From positions 62,001 through 126,000 of the forward strand of contig JAGNKU010000004.1 in the NCBI GenBank assembly GCA_017999985.1: 64,000 nucleotides of DNA, given 5' to 3'. The position numbers and the translations under genes were made by a program. Below the pieces are notes generated by a model. The model saw only the letters and a list, made by a program, of their open reading frames with translations. It was not told where the DNA came from and searched no databases. The stretch is from Phycisphaerae bacterium (GTDB taxonomy: Bacteria; Planctomycetota; Phycisphaerae; UBA1845; Fen-1342). Positions 27,122 through 59,113 of this stretch are shown one piece after another (within the stretch, counting starts at the first letter, position 1; every line of letters starts with the position of its first letter).

Positions 27122-27149
27122 TTGACTCGTACAAAAACGGTGCTATATT
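27122..27149 (+). promoter_or_regulatory. Sigma70-type promoter upstream of the FAS1 gene
   Basis: TTGACT (27122-27127), 16 bp, TATATT (27144-27149). An ATG starting 6 nt after the -10 (27156) opens a 53-codon frame ending at 27317, before the FAS1 gene at 27356. The mRNA is thus either a ~200-nt leader or carries a leaderless small ORF. ATGAACGATT at 27156 duplicates the half-site of the MerR operator. Confidence 0.65.
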
Positions 27150-27355
27150 TGAGGCATGAACGATTTGAGCGAATACAGGGCGACGATGATCCCGCGTACC
27201 GCAGCCAGCCTCCCCAGCATGGTCACCCCGGTGAGGCGCCGCGGGCGGGCGCCGGGGCACCGACCGAATCACTCCGCCGCACCGATGACCGTCGCCCGGC
27301 TAGCGAGCTGTTGCTAACGAGGAATGGACCAGGGACCTTTAACAGGAGAAACGTG

Positions 27356-28249
27356 ATGATGACGAGTGCGAAAGTTGTTCCGACGTTTGCGAGCGTGGCG
27401 CTCCTGGTGCTCTTGGCGGCACCTGTCCGGGCCCAGGAAGCGTGCGGCGGTTCCAAGAACATCGTCCAGACGGCGGTCGCGGCGGGCCAGTTCAAGACAC
27501 TGGTCAAGGCCGTGGAGGCCGCCGGCCTCGCCGACACTCTGAGCGGCAGCGGGCCGTTCACCGTCTTTGCTCCCACCGACGAGGCGTTCGCGAAGCTCCC
27601 GGCGGGCACGCTGGAGTCTCTGCTCCAGAACCCCGCGGCCCTTAAGAGCGTGCTGCTGTATCACGTGGTCCCGGGCAAGGTAATGGCCGCGGATGTTGTC
27701 AAGCTGAAGTCGGCCAAGACGGCACTTGGCCAGTCCGTGCGGATTGATGCCTCCCAGGAGGTGCGTGTCGGAAACGCGAAAATGACGAAGACCGACATCG
27801 CCGCGAGCAACGGCGTGATTCACGTGATCGACACCGTGATCATCCCGAAGAATGACATTATTGAAGCCGCGCGGGCCGCCGGGTCGTTTACCACGCTGCT
27901 GACGGCGATCGAGGCGGCCGGCTTGACCGACACCCTGCGCGGGGACGGCCCGTTCACGGTTTTCGCGCCGACGAACGAGGCGTTCGCGAAGCTGCCCAAG
28001 GAGACGCTCGACGCGTTGCTGACGGACAAGACCAAGCTGGCGTCGATCCTGACCTACCATGTTGTTCCGGGCAAAGTGCTGGCGGCCGACGTGGTCAAGC
28101 TGACCGAGGCCAAGACTGTGCAGGGTCAGAGCGTGAAGATCTCCGCAGCGGATGGCGTAACGGTTGACAACGCGAAGGTAGTGAAGACCGACGTGTCGGC
28201 CACGAACGGCGTGATTCACGTCATCGATACGGTGATCATCCCGGGTTAG
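27356..28249 (+). CDS. Secreted protein with two fasciclin (FAS1) domains
   Basis: A 297-residue exported protein. It has a signal peptide (about 1-24, ending VRAQ) and two tandem FAS1 domains, at about residues 30-163 and 166-297. Each has the H1 motif ([34 protein letters not shown]), the YH motif ([18 protein letters not shown]) and the closing [15 protein letters not shown]1 domains mediate adhesion or ligand binding outside the cell. The two copies are very similar, indicating an internal duplication. AACAGGAG precedes the tandem ATGs at 27356/27359. A strong promoter lies 230 bp upstream, divergent from the light-linked MerR gene. DUF378 and SOUL genes follow on the same strand. Confidence 0.92.
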
Positions 28250-28646: not shown

Positions 28647-29453
28647 ATGTTCAAGATCGCGGTTGTGTCAGGCACGTTGCTTTTAATGGTCGCGTTGCTG
28701 GGGGCCTTGGCCGTCCTGGTCGCCGGCTGCAGTCTGCACCGCCCGGTTTCGGCAGCGCGCGTTTCGAGCCTCACCGTTGCCCATGGGCCTGAACCGGCGT
28801 TAACCGGCACCGCGCAGACGCCTGATGCGGCCGCGGACATCGAAGTTGTGCGCGTCGGCGGGGACATGCACACGGCCATGGAGTTCATCAACGGCGAGTT
28901 TCGCAGCGGCGTGTGCCGGATTTCGACGCCGCTACCGGAGGGCTATCCGGCACCGACCCCGCCCAACACGATCGAGCTGAAGCGTTACCCCGCCGTCCGA
29001 CGAGCTGGCATCGGTGGGAGCATGTCGCCGGACTGGGGTATGAACTTGGCGTTCTTCCCGCTGTTCAATCACATCAAGCGACGTGAGATCGCGATGACCT
29101 CCCCCGTGGAGCTGGACTACGCGGGGCTGGGCGCGCCCGGCGCGACCAAACCGACCGAGTGGACGATGTCGTTCCTGTACCGCACTCCTGAGCTGGGGCC
29201 GGCAGGCATTGATTCTGAGGACACGCGCGTCCTGGTGGAAGATGTCCCGCCGGTGACTGTCGTGGCGCTCGGCATGCGGGGACCTTACCAGCTCGAGCAT
29301 GTGAATTCCGGCCTTGCAGCCCTGCGGGGCTGGTTGGCGAGCCAGTCCGACTGGGAGGAGGCCGGCGACCCGCGCGCCCTATTCTACAACGGCCCGGAGG
29401 TTCGTCCTCGCGATAAGTGGTCGGAGGTGCAGATCCCGCTGCGCCGAAGATAA
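28647..29453 (+). CDS. SOUL-family heme-binding lipoprotein
   Basis: A 268-residue protein of the SOUL/HBP family, whose members bind heme or related tetrapyrroles. The N-terminus is a lipoprotein signal (ALAVLVAGCS, Cys28). The SOUL domain from about residue 70 has YPAVRRAGIGGSMSPDWGMN, the family hallmark REIAMTSPVELDY, WTMSFLYR, VVALGMRGPY and a C-terminal ALFYNGPEV...WSEVQIPL. It should be anchored at the membrane facing the periplasm. A GGGAG site precedes the ATG. It follows FAS1 and DUF378 and is near a blue-light regulator; SOUL proteins are often found in light-induced photolyase clusters. Confidence 0.9.
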   Translation: MFKIAVVSGTLLLMVALLGALAVLVAGCSLHRPVSAARVSSLTVAHGPEPALTGTAQTPDAAADIEVVRVGGDMHTAMEFINGEFRSGVCRISTPLPEGYPAPTPPNTIELKRYPAVRRAGIGGSMSPDWGMNLAFFPLFNHIKRREIAMTSPVELDYAGLGAPGATKPTEWTMSFLYRTPELGPAGIDSEDTRVLVEDVPPVTVVALGMRGPYQLEHVNSGLAALRGWLASQSDWEEAGDPRALFYNGPEVRPRDKWSEVQIPLRRR

Positions 29454-29581: not shown

Positions 29582-30436
29582 ATGCTGACGTCATCCTCTC
29601 CCGTGGCGACCCTTGCGGCCTTGGCAGCGGGTTGCCTGCTTTTCTCCGGCTGCTCGATTCCGCTGCCCTGGCCGGAAAGCCCGCTGTATGAAACGCCCGC
29701 CAACGATCCGAACTGGGTCGCGCCCGCGAGCAAGGCAGAGGCCATGGCGGCCATGGCGGGACATTATGCCCACTACGACATCGTCGCCTACGAGGGCGAG
29801 ACCGCCAATGGCCCGCTGTCCACGTTCATCGTCTCGTATGGCTTCACGGACCTGGTCATCGAAGACGGAGAGCTTGTCGCGTACGACACCTTCTGCTCTG
29901 CCAAGTACATCGCCAATCAAAACTTCGACACGATCTTCTCGGATGCCGCCACACAGGCCATTCAGCCCCCTGGTGCCATCGTCGACGTGTATGAGGAGAA
30001 TGGGGTGTGGAAGCTACGGCGTCCCGCGACGCCGACGCTCAATGGCATTGGTGGCGACCCGAACGTGCCGCTTTCCACGGACCGCAACGATCCCCTGATC
30101 AGCGACGATGACCATGACGGAAAGCCTGGCGTGACCGTATCCGTGAAGCTGTTCGGCGTTATTGAGGGTGAGATCTATATCGCCCGGCGCGAGATATTCG
30201 CAAACGAAATGGCGCTCTACTCCGATGGCAGCCTGCGCGGCAATGTCATCGACGACTCGGAGCAACTGGTGATTGGGGCGTCGCTCGCGATTCTGGACAC
30301 GCCCAACAACCCGCCCCAGCGGCGCGATCCCGGCCTGAATCCGATCATTCTGATACCGGTCTCGGATGACATCGACACCTGCGAAGAACTCATGGCCATT
30401 CGAGATTCGCTGTTTCCCCCCGAGCCGAAATTCTGA
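29582..30436 (+). CDS. Lipoprotein of unknown function
   Basis: I do not recognise a named family. The 284-residue protein has a clear lipoprotein signal (LAAGCLLFSGCS, Cys at about residue 24). A domain follows with AMAAMAGHYAHYDIVAYEGE and LSTFIVSYGFTDLVIEDGEL. Next comes an Asp-rich stretch (LISDDDHDGKPGVTVSVKL) that may bind calcium, and a C-terminal beta region (GEIYIARREIFANEMALYSD). The overall pattern suggests an envelope lipoprotein that binds a ligand. AGGAG lies 8 nt upstream of the ATG. The neighbours are the SOUL protein (128 bp upstream) and the PETase-like hydrolase downstream; no functional link is evident. Confidence 0.65.
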   Translation: MLTSSSPVATLAALAAGCLLFSGCSIPLPWPESPLYETPANDPNWVAPASKAEAMAAMAGHYAHYDIVAYEGETANGPLSTFIVSYGFTDLVIEDGELVAYDTFCSAKYIANQNFDTIFSDAATQAIQPPGAIVDVYEENGVWKLRRPATPTLNGIGGDPNVPLSTDRNDPLISDDDHDGKPGVTVSVKLFGVIEGEIYIARREIFANEMALYSDGSLRGNVIDDSEQLVIGASLAILDTPNNPPQRRDPGLNPIILIPVSDDIDTCEELMAIRDSLFPPEPKF

Positions 30437-30598
30437 ACCTGCGTAAGCCGTACATGGAGCGGCTCGGCCCAAACGCACCAGCGCCCACGCGGTCATAGCG
30501 GCATTTCGCCGGCGTGCCTTGGCGCTGGAAGAAGTAGTGCGTCATACTGGGCGCTTGAGGCAGGATTGAAGCAACGCTGGAATGCGAGGTTCCCAATC

Positions 30599-32038
30599 AT
30601 GGTTGGTGCTGTCGCCATTTCTGAGCTTGCCTGGGTCGGGGCCCCCAAGGCGCTGCTGCGGCCCGTTGCGTTGTTCCTCGCGTTGCTCGCCTCGCCGGCA
30701 ACTTGGTCTGCGTTGTCGGACCCCGGGCCATTTAGCGCCGGATGGGTCGAGGTTTCGGTGCCACGTCCGGGGGGCGGCGACTTCAACGCTTTGCTGTTCT
30801 ACCCGGCCACCACTTCCGGGCAGGGAGCCGCCTACGATGGCAGCGGCGCCCCGTATCCGGGTATCACTTTCGGTCACGGCTGGATCACGGCGGTCACCCG
30901 TTACCAGAGTACGCTGGAGCATCTCGCGACCTGGGGCTACTTCGTGATCGCGAGCGAGTCTTACGGCGGGCTGTTCCCCGACCACTCCGCCTTCGCCGAC
31001 GACCTGCGCTGGTGCCTGACGTATCTTGAGAACCAGCACGCGGATCCGGGCTCGTGGCTTCACCAGCAGGTGGACACAGCGAACTTCGGAGCTTCCGGTC
31101 AGTCCATGGGCGGTGGGGCCAGCATTCTGGCCACGCAGCGCGACCCACGAATCCGCGCACTGGCCAACATGGCCGCCGCAGAGACGAATCCGTCAGCAAT
31201 CACGGCAATCGCCGGTATATTCGCACCCGTCTGCCTGATCGCCGGGGACGAGGACTCGATTGCGCCGCCGGTGTCACACACGATTCCGATGTATGACAAC
31301 GCCCACGCCCCCCGCCGACTGCCGCTTCTTGACGGCGGCTGGCACTGTGGGTTCCTGGACAGCAGCTTCTTCGGCTGCGACAGCGGCGCGCTGCCCCGCG
31401 CGACGCAACTGGCCCTGACGCGGGGCCTGCTCACCGGCTTCTTCAACCTCTACCTGAAAAACGACCAAGCGGTCTGGCGGCACGTGTGGGGTCCCGAACT
31501 CTACGCGGAGCCGTTGATCAACAACACGTGCGTGGATCCGGGCATCATGCTTGATCCCAACCAAATTACTCTGCACGGGTTCGGCGGACAGACGGTGCAG
31601 GCCGAGTTCCTGCTGGTGAATTCCGGCCCACTCCCGACCAGTTACACGCTCCTGGTCGAAGACCACGCCTGGCCGACGACGGCCGCGCCTTCGCCGACGC
31701 CAGTGCTGAACCCCGGCGAGTCGCTGGTGGCGTGCGTAACGGTCCAGATCGCAGCGGGCGCGGGAACAGGCTCCGACCTGGCCTTGCTCAGCGCACGCTC
31801 GGATCTCGATGGCGGGACGCGCACGTACGCGACGCTGGCAACTCAGCGCTGGCTGCGCGGCGACCTGAACGGCGACGGCGACGTGGACGGGGCGGACTTT
31901 GCTGTTTTCAGTGGCTGCCTGACGGGACCGAACACCGACATTCTCGGTGGCTGTAACAACGCTGATCTGGACCTGGACGCGGACGTGGACCTCGCGGATT
32001 TCGCGTCTTTTGAGCTGAACTTCGGTGCTGGCCCGTGA
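30599..32038 (+). CDS. Secreted PETase/cutinase-like alpha/beta-hydrolase with dockerin-like C-terminus
   Basis: A 479-residue exported serine hydrolase. After a signal peptide (about 1-44) the catalytic domain has the nucleophile elbow GQSMGGGAS (Ser169), the acid in GDEDSIAP (Asp219) and the histidine in GGWHCGF (His249). Order and context match PETase, cutinase-2 and PHL-type polyester hydrolases (GWSMGGG, ENDSIAP, GGSHSC), including the IPMYDNAHAPRR stretch between Asp and His. A substrate-side GHGWITAVTRYQ precedes. After about residue 300 comes a beta-sandwich domain, and the last ~55 residues are dockerin-like calcium loops (GDLNGDGDVDGADFAVFSGC, DLDLDADVDLADFASF). Likely substrates are natural polyesters or lipids. 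Chlorophyllase-like or dienelactone hydrolases are alternatives. I chose the ATG at 30599 (GAGG 9 nt upstream) over an earlier TTG. Confidence 0.8.
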   Translation: MVGAVAISELAWVGAPKALLRPVALFLALLASPATWSALSDPGPFSAGWVEVSVPRPGGGDFNALLFYPATTSGQGAAYDGSGAPYPGITFGHGWITAVTRYQSTLEHLATWGYFVIASESYGGLFPDHSAFADDLRWCLTYLENQHADPGSWLHQQVDTANFGASGQSMGGGASILATQRDPRIRALANMAAAETNPSAITAIAGIFAPVCLIAGDEDSIAPPVSHTIPMYDNAHAPRRLPLLDGGWHCGFLDSSFFGCDSGALPRATQLALTRGLLTGFFNLYLKNDQAVWRHVWGPELYAEPLINNTCVDPGIMLDPNQITLHGFGGQTVQAEFLLVNSGPLPTSYTLLVEDHAWPTTAAPSPTPVLNPGESLVACVTVQIAAGAGTGSDLALLSARSDLDGGTRTYATLATQRWLRGDLNGDGDVDGADFAVFSGCLTGPNTDILGGCNNADLDLDADVDLADFASFELNFGAGP

Positions 32039-43571: not shown

Positions 43572-44101
43572 GCACCGCCGTCAATGCCAACCACGTCCGA
43601 TCGTGCCAGCGCGAGCGCGCGCAGCGCCGCCGCACAAGCCTGCACGTCCGCCGGCGGCAGGCATTGTAGCCACATGTCCGCGAAGCGTCGCGCGGCCGCT
43701 TCGCCGGCGTGGCACTCACCGTGCCTGCGACGCGCAGCACAACGCCGCGCGTCAGCCATCACGTGCCACAGCTCGTGCCCCAGGGTCCGGACCAGCTCCG
43801 CGTCTGACCGGGCCTCGCCGCACCCGTAGATTTCGATCCGTCGCAACACGGGATCCCACGCCCCGAAAACCTGTCGCCCCCGGCCACACAACGGCTGTGT
43901 CCGCACCAGCAATCCGACACCCAGCCGCGCTAGCGCGGCGCGCGGCTGCCGCAGCGCAAACGTCGCCGCCAGGCGCCGGGCCCACGCGCTCAGCACCGCG
44001 GCAGGCGGCACCAGTGCACAGGCCGCGGCGCGCCGCAGCAGACGTGCGTGCCGGCCACCTCCGCAAGAAACAGGCCGCTGTTGCTGACGCGCGTCACTCA
44101 C
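43568..44101 (-). CDS. Small HELWH zinc-peptidase-like protein
   Basis: A 177-residue protein without a clear signal peptide. The middle holds LVRTLGHELWHVMAD, a zinc-binding HExxH motif with Glu as catalytic base. A later GEAAARRFADMWLQ could give the third zinc ligand (Glu), as in ImmA/IrrE-like and minigluzincin peptidases. The N-terminal ~65 residues are Arg/Ala-rich and the true start may be internal. It overlaps by 4 bp both the upstream GHL10 gene and the downstream transporter gene, so translation is coupled. A peptidase in a sugar/amide catabolic operon is unexpected; it may process a partner or act as a sensor. Confidence 0.65.
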   Translation of the reverse strand: MSDARQQQRPVSCGGGRHARLLRRAAACALVPPAAVLSAWARRLAATFALRQPRAALARLGVGLLVRTQPLCGRGRQVFGAWDPVLRRIEIYGCGEARSDAELVRTLGHELWHVMADARRCAARRRHGECHAGEAAARRFADMWLQCLPPADVQACAAALRALALARSDVVGIDGGA

Positions 44102-46257
44102 GGCAGACCGAATCGCAACTGAAAGCTGGCCAGATCAGCGAGGTCCACGTCCGTATCGTCGTCCCAGTCAGCGAACTCGCACGTCGTGGCGGCCGGTCCC
44201 GCGTCGGGGCCCGTGATACACCCCGCCACCGCCGCAAAATCGGCCGCGGCGACCGTCCCGTTCCCATCGGCATCGCCCAGCGCATAGCCCGAGAGCACCA
44301 GCTTCACACCGTCACTGCTTGTGTACTCAGCCGCATCGCTGTCTGCGGTGGAGACGGTGACCCGCCGCGCGAGAGGGCCGGCTTCGAAGATCCAGCGGCC
44401 GATGGGCACCCATTGGCCGCCGTTGGCGCGCTGGTCGACCAGCACCGTGGACTCGCCGTTGTAGTGCGCGACCGTATAGCGCGCCGCGTCGTTGCGGTTG
44501 CTGGCCGCAGTGTACCAGACGTACACGCTGTAGCGGCCGTCCTTGGGCAATTCGGCGTGAAACTCCGCCGACTTCGTGTTGCCACCCGCCGCCACGCGTG
44601 AGCCGAGGCGCAGGAAATCCGGCTGCGCGGAGTTCGCCCAGGCACCGACCTCGACGTAGCGCGGGCTGCCATCGTGATCGTCGATGACGCGCTGCACGTA
44701 ACGATCACTGACAAACGGGTTGTAGGCCGGCGGCTCCCACGGCCCACCGGGTGCCGGCAAGTGATCGATCTCATCCTGGATGGCGATCTGCGCTGTGTAC
44801 TGGTGATAGACCCACAGGCAGCCGTGCGGTACGCCTTGGCTGACTGCGTACTCGATCTGGTCCGCGACGAGCGACCAGTCGTTATCCTCGGATGCGCGGT
44901 AGCCGACACCAAGCTTGTCCAGATGCGCCGGAGCCTGGGTCTTCTGCGTGTTGAACTCGGTGATGAAGCTGCTGAGCGTGGTCATGTACATCTGCGGCAT
45001 CACCAGATCCATGTAGCCGCCGTTCACCCAGTCCGACCAGCGCTGCATCATCTGCGTGATGCCGTACGATCCCAGCGGCGAACTCGAGACGACGATCTCC
45101 GCATTCGCAGCCTGCACGCGGTCGTAGAACTGGTGCATTGCGTCGTTGACCAGCCCCTCACGGAACGTCACCCACGTCGCGTTGTTCACGTTCGTCGGCG
45201 GATAGACGCCGTAGATCACGTAGTAGCGGTTCTTCGTGCAGTCCTCGTAGCCGTACTCACGGCCCGTGTCCTTGCGCCCCCAGCGAATGCGGTCGAGCTG
45301 GATGTCGTCGAAGTCGTAGTTCTCGGCCAGCTCACGCACCATGCCCGCGATCATCGCCACGCCCGGCTCGGAGCCCGGACTGATGAACACGAACCCACCG
45401 TTCTCGCCGGTCACCGCGTCGCCGAAGCGATCCCGTGCCAGCCAGTCGGGATGCGCCACGGCAATGGAATGCGACTGTCCGCCGAGCGCAAAGCCGTATT
45501 CGAACCAGGCCCCGACCTTCAGTCCTTCATCGTGGAAGATGTCGAGCAGGCGCGCCGCGTAGTCCGTGGAAGCCGATGCCCAGCTCCCACCGGCGCTCTT
45601 GTACGCCTGCGACGGCCAATAGACCGTGCCGCCGGTGTACATGGCGATGTAAACCGTGTTCATGTGACCGGCGCGGATGTTCTGCGCCATCGCGCGCAAT
45701 TGCGCCTCGGTCTTACCCAGATACGTATACTGCGTCAGCCAGCAGGCCCGCACTTCGGGCACCGCGTCACCCGGCGTCTGGGCGACGAAGCGCACCGCGT
45801 CCGCGACAATGCTCTTGCCCGCCTCCGCCGCGCTGGTGAGCGTCACGCGCCCCGCGGTGCCCGCCGCGAACTCATACGAGCCGATCGTATACCACTGCGA
45901 CCCATTGACGCGCTGATCGACGTACACGTCCGCCGTGCCGGTCGCATGCTCGATCGTGTAGTGAGCGTTGCTCGGGCGGTCGTAACCACCACGGTACCAG
46001 ACGGCGACCTCGTACACGCCGCCATGTGCAAGCGTGGGGCACCACTCCACTTCGCCCGGCGTCAGGCTGGTCGATCGATACCGATAGTCCGCCCCGTACT
46101 GACCATCGACCGAGGCCGTCGCCCAGATCTCCGAAAGCACGACAAACCCCGCATCGGTGTTGTCGATCGTGATCACCTGGGCCACCGCCGTGGGAGTCGC
46201 AACCAGGATCAAAACGCTCAAGAGCCCCTGGCGCCTGATGCAACCGCCTGCTTGCAC
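44098..46257 (-). CDS. Secreted GHL10 (DUF187) glycoside hydrolase-like protein with golvesin and dockerin-like modules
   Basis: A 719-residue exported protein. Starting at the GTG at 46257 (AGGAG 7 nt upstream), it has a signal peptide ending AVAQ. A golvesin-like beta-sandwich follows (IDNTDAGFVVLSEIWATASV, DVYVDQRVNGSQWYTIG). The central GHL10 TIM barrel (about 165-530) begins VRACWLTQYTYLGKTEAQL and includes KVGAWFEYGF, DFDDIQLDRIRWG and YMDLVMPQMYMTT. A second golvesin-like domain comes next (VIDDHDGSPRYVEVGAWA, TVLVDQRANGGQWVPIG), and a dockerin-like end (GDADGNGTVAAADFAAVAGC, DWDDDTDVDLADLASF). GHL10 proteins act on cell-wall or other polysaccharides. It heads the four-gene operon and faces a related operator at 46335. 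A second GHL10 gene lies at 56588. Confidence 0.88.
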   Translation of the reverse strand: MQAGGCIRRQGLLSVLILVATPTAVAQVITIDNTDAGFVVLSEIWATASVDGQYGADYRYRSTSLTPGEVEWCPTLAHGGVYEVAVWYRGGYDRPSNAHYTIEHATGTADVYVDQRVNGSQWYTIGSYEFAAGTAGRVTLTSAAEAGKSIVADAVRFVAQTPGDAVPEVRACWLTQYTYLGKTEAQLRAMAQNIRAGHMNTVYIAMYTGGTVYWPSQAYKSAGGSWASASTDYAARLLDIFHDEGLKVGAWFEYGFALGGQSHSIAVAHPDWLARDRFGDAVTGENGGFVFISPGSEPGVAMIAGMVRELAENYDFDDIQLDRIRWGRKDTGREYGYEDCTKNRYYVIYGVYPPTNVNNATWVTFREGLVNDAMHQFYDRVQAANAEIVVSSSPLGSYGITQMMQRWSDWVNGGYMDLVMPQMYMTTLSSFITEFNTQKTQAPAHLDKLGVGYRASEDNDWSLVADQIEYAVSQGVPHGCLWVYHQYTAQIAIQDEIDHLPAPGGPWEPPAYNPFVSDRYVQRVIDDHDGSPRYVEVGAWANSAQPDFLRLGSRVAAGGNTKSAEFHAELPKDGRYSVYVWYTAASNRNDAARYTVAHYNGESTVLVDQRANGGQWVPIGRWIFEAGPLARRVTVSTADSDAAEYTSSDGVKLVLSGYALGDADGNGTVAAADFAAVAGCITGPDAGPAATTCEFADWDDDTDVDLADLASFQLRFGLP

Positions 46258-46334
46258 GTGGAATGCTCCTGTCGTTGGGAAATCAGCCGCGCCGTAGCGG
46301 GGTGAGCGCAGACCCGTCACAAGCGACGCCGATT

Positions 46335-56389: not shown

Positions 56390-56587
56390 CCGAGTGCACG
56401 CTGCTTCAACGACGCTCCGCGCCCGCCGGCTGAGCGCGAACGCGGGTGCGACAATAGCCAAGGTCCGATAGCCTCCCGCCGCGTCCACCCGAGCAGGCCA
56501 CGCCGGCGGAGTGCTTTCCGCCAATTCGCCCTCAGGGTCCCGTCGCCGCAGGTGTACAATGGCCGCGGGGAGAAAGGCGGTGCGCGG
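56390..56587 (+). promoter_or_regulatory. Intergenic region with candidate -10 for the second GHL10 gene
   Basis: TACAAT (56555-56560) lies 27 nt before the ATG at 56588 and could be a -10 element; no clear -35 is seen. GGGAGAAAGGCGG supplies the ribosome site. No coding signal is seen in the rest. Confidence 0.35.
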
Positions 56588-59113
56588 ATGCGGTTGGCAG
56601 GTCAACCGGGGGCTCAGGCGGTCGCTCGACGGCGGGGTTGGCGCGGGGTCATCGCGGTCGTCGTCTGTGCCGCCGTCGTCATTGATGCGGGTGCCCAGAC
56701 GCCGGAGTTCCGCGCCATGTGGGCCTCGCGGTTCGACTGGCCCGCCCCCAACGAGGCCGCCTGCAAGGCGAACCTTGACGCGCTCATGCAGGACCTGGAC
56801 GACGCGAACTTCAATGCCGTTTTTCTGCAGGTTCGCGGCCAGGCGGACGTGCTGTATCCCTCGCCGTACGAGGTCTGGTCACCCCTCCTCGGGGGTGGCG
56901 ACCCGGGCTGGGACCCGCTGGCCTACGCGCTCGCGGCGGCCCACGCCCGCGGCATCGAGCTGCACGCCTACATCAACATCCACACGTGCTGGCAGAGCTC
57001 GGCCCACACGCCGCCGGCCGAGCCCAACCACCTGTTCTACGCGCACTGCAACGCGTCCGATCCGGCCCACCGCGACTGGCTGCACCACGACAACCCCACC
57101 AACCCCGTGCAGTTCAGCGAGAGCGACTACGTGTGGATCGCGCCGGGCGTACCGGCGTTCCAGGCGTACATCCGGCAGCAGGTCCTGTACGTCGTCCAGA
57201 CCTACGACGTCGACGGCGTACACTACGACCGCATCCGCACGCCGTGGTCCAACCAGCCCTCGTACGATCCGATCAGCCTGGCGCGGTTCAACGACCCGCA
57301 GAGCAACCCGGACGACCTGGATTTCACCGCGTGGACGGCCGACCAGATCACGCGCACCGTCCGCGACATCTACGCCGCCATCATGGCTGTGCGGCCCGAG
57401 GTCGCGGTCAGTGCCGCGGTTTACTCCAACCCGAGCACCGCGCCGGCCGCGCAGCACCAGGACGCGCCCGCGTGGGCCCAGACCGGCGGCCTCGACATCC
57501 TGGTGCCGATGATGTACTTCACCGGCGGGGCCGGCTCGACCTGGGACCTGCGGCTTCAGCAATGGCTTGCGCTCGACGGCGGGCGCCACGTCGTCGCCGG
57601 GCAGATCACGTCACAGGGCGTCACTTCACTCCTGGGACAGATCATCCTGACGCGTCAGCGCGGCGCACAGGGCAACAGCGTGTTCTCGTGGGGCTCGTTC
57701 ACCTTCGGCGACGACTACCTCGCCAACGTGTACCAGACACCGGTCGCGACCCCGACCATGGACTGGAAAACCGCGCCCACCACCGGGATCATCGTCGGCA
57801 CGGTGACCGGCAACGGCGTACCCGTCGTCGATGCGCAGCTTCACCGCGACGGCTCCACGTACACCGCCCTCGCCAGCGGCGACGGGTTCTACTCGTTCCT
57901 GCTCGTTCCGCCGGGAACGTACACGCTGACGGCCGCGCATCCGGCGTATTCCACAACGGTGGCCACCGGCGTGACGGTGGCCGCGGGGCAAGTCGTGCAG
58001 CGTGATATCGACCTGGGTCTGCCGTTGCCGCCGATCATCGCTGAAGTGACGCCCGATCCCGATGTCGTGGAGGCAGGCACGGCGTACACGCGTCAGTTGG
58101 CGCTGACACAGGGCATCGCGGATTCGTGGACGCTAATTGATGGGCCGTCGGGCGCCAGTGTGGGCGCGCAAGGCTTCGTGAGCGGCTGGACACCCGGCGA
58201 AAGCGAGATCGGCCAGATGTTCCTCTTCACGGTGCGGGCCACGAACGCCAGCGGCTCCGACGATGAGAGCTGGTACGTCGCCGTCGCGGGTCCGCCGCCC
58301 TGCCAAGTTCACCTGTTCACGGATTTCGACGCGTACGCGGCGGGTGAGCGGGTGTTGTTCAACCGGCCGCGCTACAGCGGCTCGACCTCGACCGACCTGC
58401 TGGCGGCGCCGGACGTGGCCGAGGTTACGACCGCGGTCACGCCATTCAGCCCGCCGAACTGCTACCTCGTGCAGTGGCAGTTCGTCGACACGGACCCGCA
58501 GCGCTGGCTGCGGCTGACCACGCACAACGCCCCGTATGTACCGAACCCGACGGTTGAGCTCGATCGCCCGATTCGGGTCCGGCTGCGACTGGATAGCGGC
58601 CGGCTACGGCTGGCGGTGGGCATACGCGAGACGGGCACGACTGCCGCGGTTGGCGAGGACGGCGGCACGACGGGCACGATTGAATGGGTCGGCGCTGCGA
58701 CGGACCTCAATGGCGCGCCGCAGGGCGTGCTGGTCGAGCCGCAGCCGGGAGTCTGGCAGACTTTCGTCTTCGATCCGCTGACCGACCCGATTCTCGGGCT
58801 GAACGGCGACGGCGTGCTGTGGACCGGCACGAACAAGGGCACGTTCGAGCACCTGGCGTTCTCGATTGTCGATGGCGCCGGGCCGTTCACGGTTTACATC
58901 GACGACATCGATCTGCGATGTGGGCTGCCCGCGTGGGGCGATTTCGATGGCGACGCGGACGCGGACAGCGATGACTTCGCGCTGCTGGCCAACTGCCTGC
59001 AGGGGCCGGACAACGACCGGCCGCCGATGTGCGCCGCCGCCGACTTCGAGGGCGACCAGGACGTGGACCTGGGCGACTTCATGGTGTTTCAACAGGAGTT
59101 CACGGGGGAGTGA
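56588..59113 (+). CDS. Secreted GHL10 glycoside hydrolase-like protein with carboxypeptidase-regulatory and dockerin-like modules
   Basis: An 841-residue exported protein, second GHL10 homologue in the window. It has a signal peptide (about 1-37) and a GHL10 barrel (about 40-400) with EFRAMWASRFDWPAPNEAAC, FNAVFLQVRGQADVLYP, TYDVDGVHYDRIRTPW and LDILVPMMYFTGG. Next comes a carboxypeptidase regulatory-like domain (GTVTGNGVPVVDAQLHRDGS, FLLVPPGTYTLTAAHPAY), a Ig-like linker and a beta-sandwich. The last ~60 residues are dockerin-like (GDFDGDADADSDDFALLANC, DFEGDQDVDLGDFMVF). It should act on extracellular glycans. The start ATG is placed after the AAAGG site; a GTG at 56552 falls on the presumed -10. 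It faces the efflux operon tail to tail. Confidence 0.87.
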   Translation: MRLAGQPGAQAVARRRGWRGVIAVVVCAAVVIDAGAQTPEFRAMWASRFDWPAPNEAACKANLDALMQDLDDANFNAVFLQVRGQADVLYPSPYEVWSPLLGGGDPGWDPLAYALAAAHARGIELHAYINIHTCWQSSAHTPPAEPNHLFYAHCNASDPAHRDWLHHDNPTNPVQFSESDYVWIAPGVPAFQAYIRQQVLYVVQTYDVDGVHYDRIRTPWSNQPSYDPISLARFNDPQSNPDDLDFTAWTADQITRTVRDIYAAIMAVRPEVAVSAAVYSNPSTAPAAQHQDAPAWAQTGGLDILVPMMYFTGGAGSTWDLRLQQWLALDGGRHVVAGQITSQGVTSLLGQIILTRQRGAQGNSVFSWGSFTFGDDYLANVYQTPVATPTMDWKTAPTTGIIVGTVTGNGVPVVDAQLHRDGSTYTALASGDGFYSFLLVPPGTYTLTAAHPAYSTTVATGVTVAAGQVVQRDIDLGLPLPPIIAEVTPDPDVVEAGTAYTRQLALTQGIADSWTLIDGPSGASVGAQGFVSGWTPGESEIGQMFLFTVRATNASGSDDESWYVAVAGPPPCQVHLFTDFDAYAAGERVLFNRPRYSGSTSTDLLAAPDVAEVTTAVTPFSPPNCYLVQWQFVDTDPQRWLRLTTHNAPYVPNPTVELDRPIRVRLRLDSGRLRLAVGIRETGTTAAVGEDGGTTGTIEWVGAATDLNGAPQGVLVEPQPGVWQTFVFDPLTDPILGLNGDGVLWTGTNKGTFEHLAFSIVDGAGPFTVYIDDIDLRCGLPAWGDFDGDADADSDDFALLANCLQGPDNDRPPMCAAADFEGDQDVDLGDFMVFQQEFTGE

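Follow-up and report, generated by a model that had tools for sequence, protein, structure and literature searches.

The window, a stretch of 64,000 nucleotides from a Phycisphaerales-like planctomycete, carries a gene for a predicted serine carboxylester hydrolase of a PETase-related Planctomycetota family. In our judgement there is about an even chance that this enzyme is secreted and docked, via its dockerin-like C-terminal tail, on an extracellular cohesin scaffold. Under this model Ser169-Asp219-His249 would cleave an ester through the usual acyl-enzyme route, and the calcium-loop tail would fix the esterase outside the cell, most likely on the cohesin-like domains of two scaffold proteins encoded on contig C6 of the same genome, where the docked esterase would adjoin other tail-bearing glycoside hydrolases and peptidases. 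The substrate would be an ester of natural origin, in a lipid, in a polymer or linked to a polysaccharide, rather than PET.

Gene and domain organization

The features of the esterase gene and of the related loci are listed in Table 1. An alternative TTG start at 30566 would give a product of 490 aa. The order of the modules, from a signal-peptide-like start through a hydrolase core and a beta-sandwich to the tail, is evident from the matches in the table and is preserved in the homologues that are 73-80% identical. Export of the esterase is probable.

Table 1. Coordinates of the esterase gene, its modules and related loci (window positions unless a contig is named).
Feature	Coordinates	Strand	Basis
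Esterase gene, 479 aa	30599..32038	+	ORF intact; homologues 73-80% identical align end to end
Signal-peptide-like N-terminus, residues 1-38 (LLRPVALFLALLASPATWS)	30599..30712	+	hydrophobic stretch also kept in relatives
Alpha/beta-hydrolase core, residues 39-302 (PF12740, PETase-like)	30713..31504	+	Pfam and PDB matches
Catalytic Ser169 in GQSMGG	31103..31105	+	motif and alignment
Catalytic Asp219 (= IsPETase D206)	31253..31255	+	alignment
Catalytic His249 (= IsPETase H237)	31343..31345	+	alignment
Family-specific stretch CGFLDSSFFGCDSG after catalytic His, residues 250-263	31346..31387	+	family alignment
Ig/PapD-like beta-sandwich, residues 308-418	31520..31852	+	structure model; weak NPCBM_assoc match
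Dockerin-like tail, residues 421-479	31859..32035	+	Pfam, genome-wide matches, loop patterns
GHL10 glycoside-hydrolase-like ORF with same tail	44101..46332	-	tail and Pfam match
GHL10 glycoside-hydrolase-like ORF with same tail	56390..59110	+	tail and Pfam match
Candidate scaffold locus	own genome contig C6, about 76.66-82.42 kb (L075:659-6420)	-	lineage cohesin profile

The full-length AlphaFold prediction, obtained from a four-sequence alignment, was unusable (pLDDT 43). Residues 308-418 modelled alone reached a pLDDT of 86.9, and the top solved structural matches of this sandwich were Ig folds of the PapD/ASH/MSP type, together with a linker region from a Micromonospora sialidase; judging from the model, the sandwich is most likely a spacer between the core and the tail. 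Both the beta-sandwich and the calcium-loop tail described in the initial annotation were recovered, the latter with two complete loops.

Upstream of the gene are a two-domain fasciclin protein (27122-28249), a SOUL-like gene (28647-29453) and an unmatched lipoprotein-like ORF (29582-30436), and further neighbours are a GH38 and a HAD hydrolase; none of these genes gave a pointer to the ester substrate. No sigma-70 promoter-like site was found near the gene, no terminator-like signal rose above chance at the gene, and PADLOC gave no match.

The hydrolase core is related to PETases

In a Pfam protein scan, residues 41-236 matched the PETase family PF12740 with 61.3 bits (E 1.2e-16, curated cut-off 28), and the same family was matched by all 11 of the family cores, the core of the window protein scoring 62.6 bits. 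When the single sequence was compared with the PDB, the top solved matches were PET hydrolases, the first being 8ian (E 1.9e-15), which we take to be CaPETase, and a profile of the family found solved PET hydrolases at E 3.6e-26. In an alignment for which the IsPETase and LCC reference sequences were confirmed against the PDB, S169, D219 and H249 were aligned with S160, D206 and H237 of IsPETase, which places the catalytic triad in a PETase context, and H93-G94-W95 occupied the position of the IsPETase oxyanion loop up to Tyr87. The GQSMGG, GDEDSIAP and GGWHCGF motifs lie exactly at the triad residues as numbered in the initial annotation, and its reading of the protein as a PETase-fold serine esterase, and not a dienelactone hydrolase, agrees with the profile scores (62.6 bits for PETase against 21.0 for DLH).

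The dienelactone hydrolase family (PF01738) was rejected as a candidate, with 19.0-21.0 bits compared with 61-63 for PETase and with Ser, not Cys, as the nucleophile at the elbow.

Gln168 (codon 31100-31102) is unique to the window protein, this residue being His in all 36 distinct relatives sampled and Trp in IsPETase. In the stretch CGFLDSSFFGCDSG, which follows the catalytic His, Cys250 is invariant and Cys260 nearly invariant across the family alignment, and a disulfide is proposed; this Cys-bearing stretch is absent from IsPETase and LCC in the alignment.

The active-site surround differs from that of polyester hydrolases

Judged by sequence, the window protein is a PETase relative with a different active-site surround. 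The Trp159/Trp185 clamp of IsPETase is missing, W159 corresponding to Q168 and W185 to A194, and both PETase disulfides are missing as well, Cys203, Cys239, Cys273 and Cys289 being aligned with G216, G251, W297 and T310. Three motif elements, GGGG (M2, serine helix), [PG]G[YF] (M4) and DxDxRYxxFxC (M5), were absent from residues 1-302 and were all found in the IsPETase control, using patterns derived from the prose of PMC12224614 and not from its supplement. In the published panel of that 2025 study, PET was reported to be degraded only by enzymes with the full M5 motif (PMC12224614). Maximum-likelihood analysis placed seven polyester hydrolases in one clade (100/100) on a stem of 1.73 changes per column, with the window protein outside it; joining this clade to the window trio was not rejected in a tree test (AU p 0.36).

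Because the clamp, the disulfides and the motifs are missing and the polyester hydrolases form a separate clade, a polyester substrate is unsupported, and so is a specific PETase, cutinase or suberinase function. That the window protein nevertheless acts on polyesters, cutin or suberin, and is in function a PETase or cutinase, is improbable: its top solved-protein sequence matches are PET hydrolases and an aromatic residue, W95, stands at the position of IsPETase Y87, but these likenesses have to be set against all of the differences listed above.

Another reading of the core, which we consider highly improbable, is an esterase that resembles chlorophyllases, PAF-acetylhydrolases or lipases and attacks the lipids or pigments of algae. 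The chlorophyllase family PF07224 matched 11/11 family cores and the PAF-AH family PF03403 matched seven, but on the window protein PF07224 scored 19.1-20.7 bits, below its cut-off of 26, and covered about 50 residues. Similarly, the segment FGHGWITAVTRYQSTLEHLATWGYFVIAS is similar to chlorophyllase 8fjd, but the catalytic sites of chlorophyllase carry GHSRGG and GHLDMLDDD where GQSMGG and WHCGFLD are found here.

A separate chlorophyllase-like hydrolase (GHSRGGK, HADMLDAD) is encoded elsewhere in the genome, at 95590-96024 of contig C1.

A dockerin-like tail is shared by many proteins of the genome

The tail contains two calcium loops, DLNGDGDVDGAD at residues 422-433 and DLDLDADVDLAD at residues 456-467, both of which are complete and of the dockerin type and would be expected to bind calcium, and Cys440 and Cys452 sit between them. 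Given that the tail scored above the cut-off of Dockerin_1 (PF00404, 22.9 bits) in the genome search (24.2 bits) and below it in the protein scan (19.7 bits), it is by score a borderline Dockerin_1. Its sequence matched 40 other places in the genome, which together with three further Dockerin_1 places gave 43, and 30 of these 43 matches finish at most 15 residues from a stop, compared with 1.4 expected by uniform placement. Among the 30 tail-ended proteins are five GHL10, a GH16, a GH18 and two Amidase_3 proteins (one below cut-off), as well as a C10 peptidase, a phosphodiester glycosidase and beta-helix and propeller proteins, and a crude scan detected a hydrophobic N-terminal stretch in most of the 30.

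Distribution of the family

Relatives with 80% and 73% identity were found in other planctomycete genomes and one with 53% identity in a Caldilineales (Chloroflexota) assembly. In a survey of Planctomycetota, 29 of 392 genomes had matches at E <= 1e-25. No extra homologues were found in viral contigs, and a plasmid collection gave a single weak match. At least one dockerin-type calcium loop was present in the last 60 residues of 14 of the 15 Phycisphaerae-type rows (the window protein, L009, L010 (class not given), and order- and class-mates), compared with 1 of the 22 other rows. Three members (L033-L035) carry the tail directly after the core, without the sandwich, and this together with the lineage-restricted tail counts indicated that the modules combine freely and that the tail follows the lineage. 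The combination of this fold with a dockerin-like module, initially described as unusual, is therefore so only in part: the tail itself is common, with 30 other ORFs in the genome and Dockerin_1 matches in all 61 genomes searched, and its pairing with a PETase-type core is unusual, yet recurrent among the Phycisphaerae-type members.

The Chloroflexota protein is nested in the Phycisphaerae-type clade of the tree (99/95). It has the sandwich and lacks the dockerin-like tail (L011:3920-5446), and by eye its flanking ORFs appeared to be ordinary housekeeping genes. Given that the protein nests among planctomycetes and has such flanks, an inter-phylum transfer in which the tail was lost is possible.

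In many other Planctomycetota (L036, L038-L056) the same core is followed by an unlike C-terminal sequence, which frequently finishes with ...LYFQAL...VP and may be another lineage-specific tail.

Cohesin-like domains and the role of the tail

A genome search with the Pfam Cohesin model (PF00963) gave no match in the genome carrying the window and matches in 20 of 61 relatives' genomes. A lineage cohesin profile was made from ten relatives' domains; these were taken from other genomes, so that a match in the window's own genome is not circular. In the PDB the matches of this profile were confined to cohesins and scaffoldins of cellulosomes. Applied to the window's own genome, it found two cohesin-like domains (E 3.1e-17 and 1.1e-7), both on contig C6 in the candidate scaffold locus. 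One protein of this locus (395 aa) has a cohesin-like domain and a dockerin-like tail at the C-terminus, and in another (1411 aa) a cohesin-like domain is accompanied by some ten repeats rich in Cys (Dicty_CTDC) and by a dockerin-like stretch; by eye, the N-terminus of the 1411-aa protein resembles a lamin-tail domain, which Pfam did not call. On one protein of the locus PF00963 reached 20.4 bits, below cut-off, and the cohesin of the 395-aa protein matched no solved cohesin when used as sole query against the PDB. These results show that the Pfam cohesin model can overlook likely partners in the planctomycete lineage.

An ORF adjoining the scaffold locus (L075:6480-7373, minus strand) has two calcium-loop-like stretches and, by eye, a possible cohesin-like stretch, and gave no Pfam match.

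Because cohesin-like partners are present in the genome, the dockerin-like tail could serve for display of the esterase as the initial annotation had suggested. Of the five genomes whose homologue carries the tail (G000, which is the window's own, G010, G001, G014 and G060), the lineage profile found cohesins in four, G060 being without. Counting against docking, it found them in only 31 of the 61 Dockerin_1-bearing genomes, so that about half are without and the tail may do something else. For this reason the main rival is a model with the same secreted esterase, in which the tail acts throughout the lineage as a C-terminal signal for sorting or surface retention, is recognized by another component of the secretion machinery or wall, and binds no cohesin. 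Such a role is a serious possibility, although we consider it less probable than docking. It would account for the presence of Dockerin_1 in every genome searched when cohesins were found in 20 (Pfam) or 31 (lineage profile), and for the position of 30 of the 43 tails at the extreme C-terminus; that the same core ends differently outside the Phycisphaerae-type rows, and without the tail in the Chloroflexota member, is also what a lineage-specific tag would predict. A sorting signal fits less well with the full set of dockerin-type calcium ligands kept in both loops, and with the cohesin-like domains of the same genome, one of which is in a protein with a dockerin-like tail of its own. Moreover, given that Pfam missed these domains, the absence of cohesins elsewhere may be missed detection.

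Implications and comparison with known systems

If the tail does dock on cohesins, the PETase-fold esterase might be part of a natural scaffolded complex, sharing a planctomycete scaffoldin with glycoside hydrolases and peptidases that also have dockerin tails, and acting on ester-bearing natural polymers. We put this forward tentatively, as a rather unlikely proposal; if true, the complex would be a natural counterpart of engineered PETase-dockerin designs. Engineers join PETases to dockerins for faster plastic breakdown, and a related fold with a dockerin-like module occurs naturally. The tail of the esterase and the C6 cohesin-like domains also make a concrete, testable pair for the role of the abundant dockerin-like modules of planctomycetes.

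With the PET hydrolases IsPETase, LCC and CaPETase (8ian), the window protein shares the alpha/beta-hydrolase fold, the GxSMGG elbow, the xDSIxP acid motif and the catalytic His, and it differs from them by the Cys-bearing insert after the His, the sandwich and the dockerin-like tail. The 'planctosome' of freshwater Planctomycetes, a hypothetical model (PMC6461901), likewise combines cohesins with dockerins and includes a large protein in which a cohesin is joined to Cys-rich repeats, as well as an adaptor-like protein bearing both modules; the published model centres on peptidases, whereas here the tail is found on glycoside hydrolases and an esterase. Cellulosomal dockerin enzymes, which include carbohydrate esterases (PMC11557425), have in common with the present case the attachment of a hydrolase to a dockerin with two calcium loops, and cohesin-like domains in the genome; here, in contrast, the core is of the PETase type, two cohesins were detected with none over the Pfam cut-off, and docking is presumed. 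Among nine papers of the searched literature that mention both PETase and dockerin, none, judged by title and abstract, describes a natural fusion of the two. Engineered PETase-dockerin fusions (reviewed in PMC11423324) also bring this fold and this module together on a scaffold, but those are laboratory-made and combine a true PETase with a clostridial dockerin, whereas here a natural gene combines a non-PETase active site with a dockerin-like tail.
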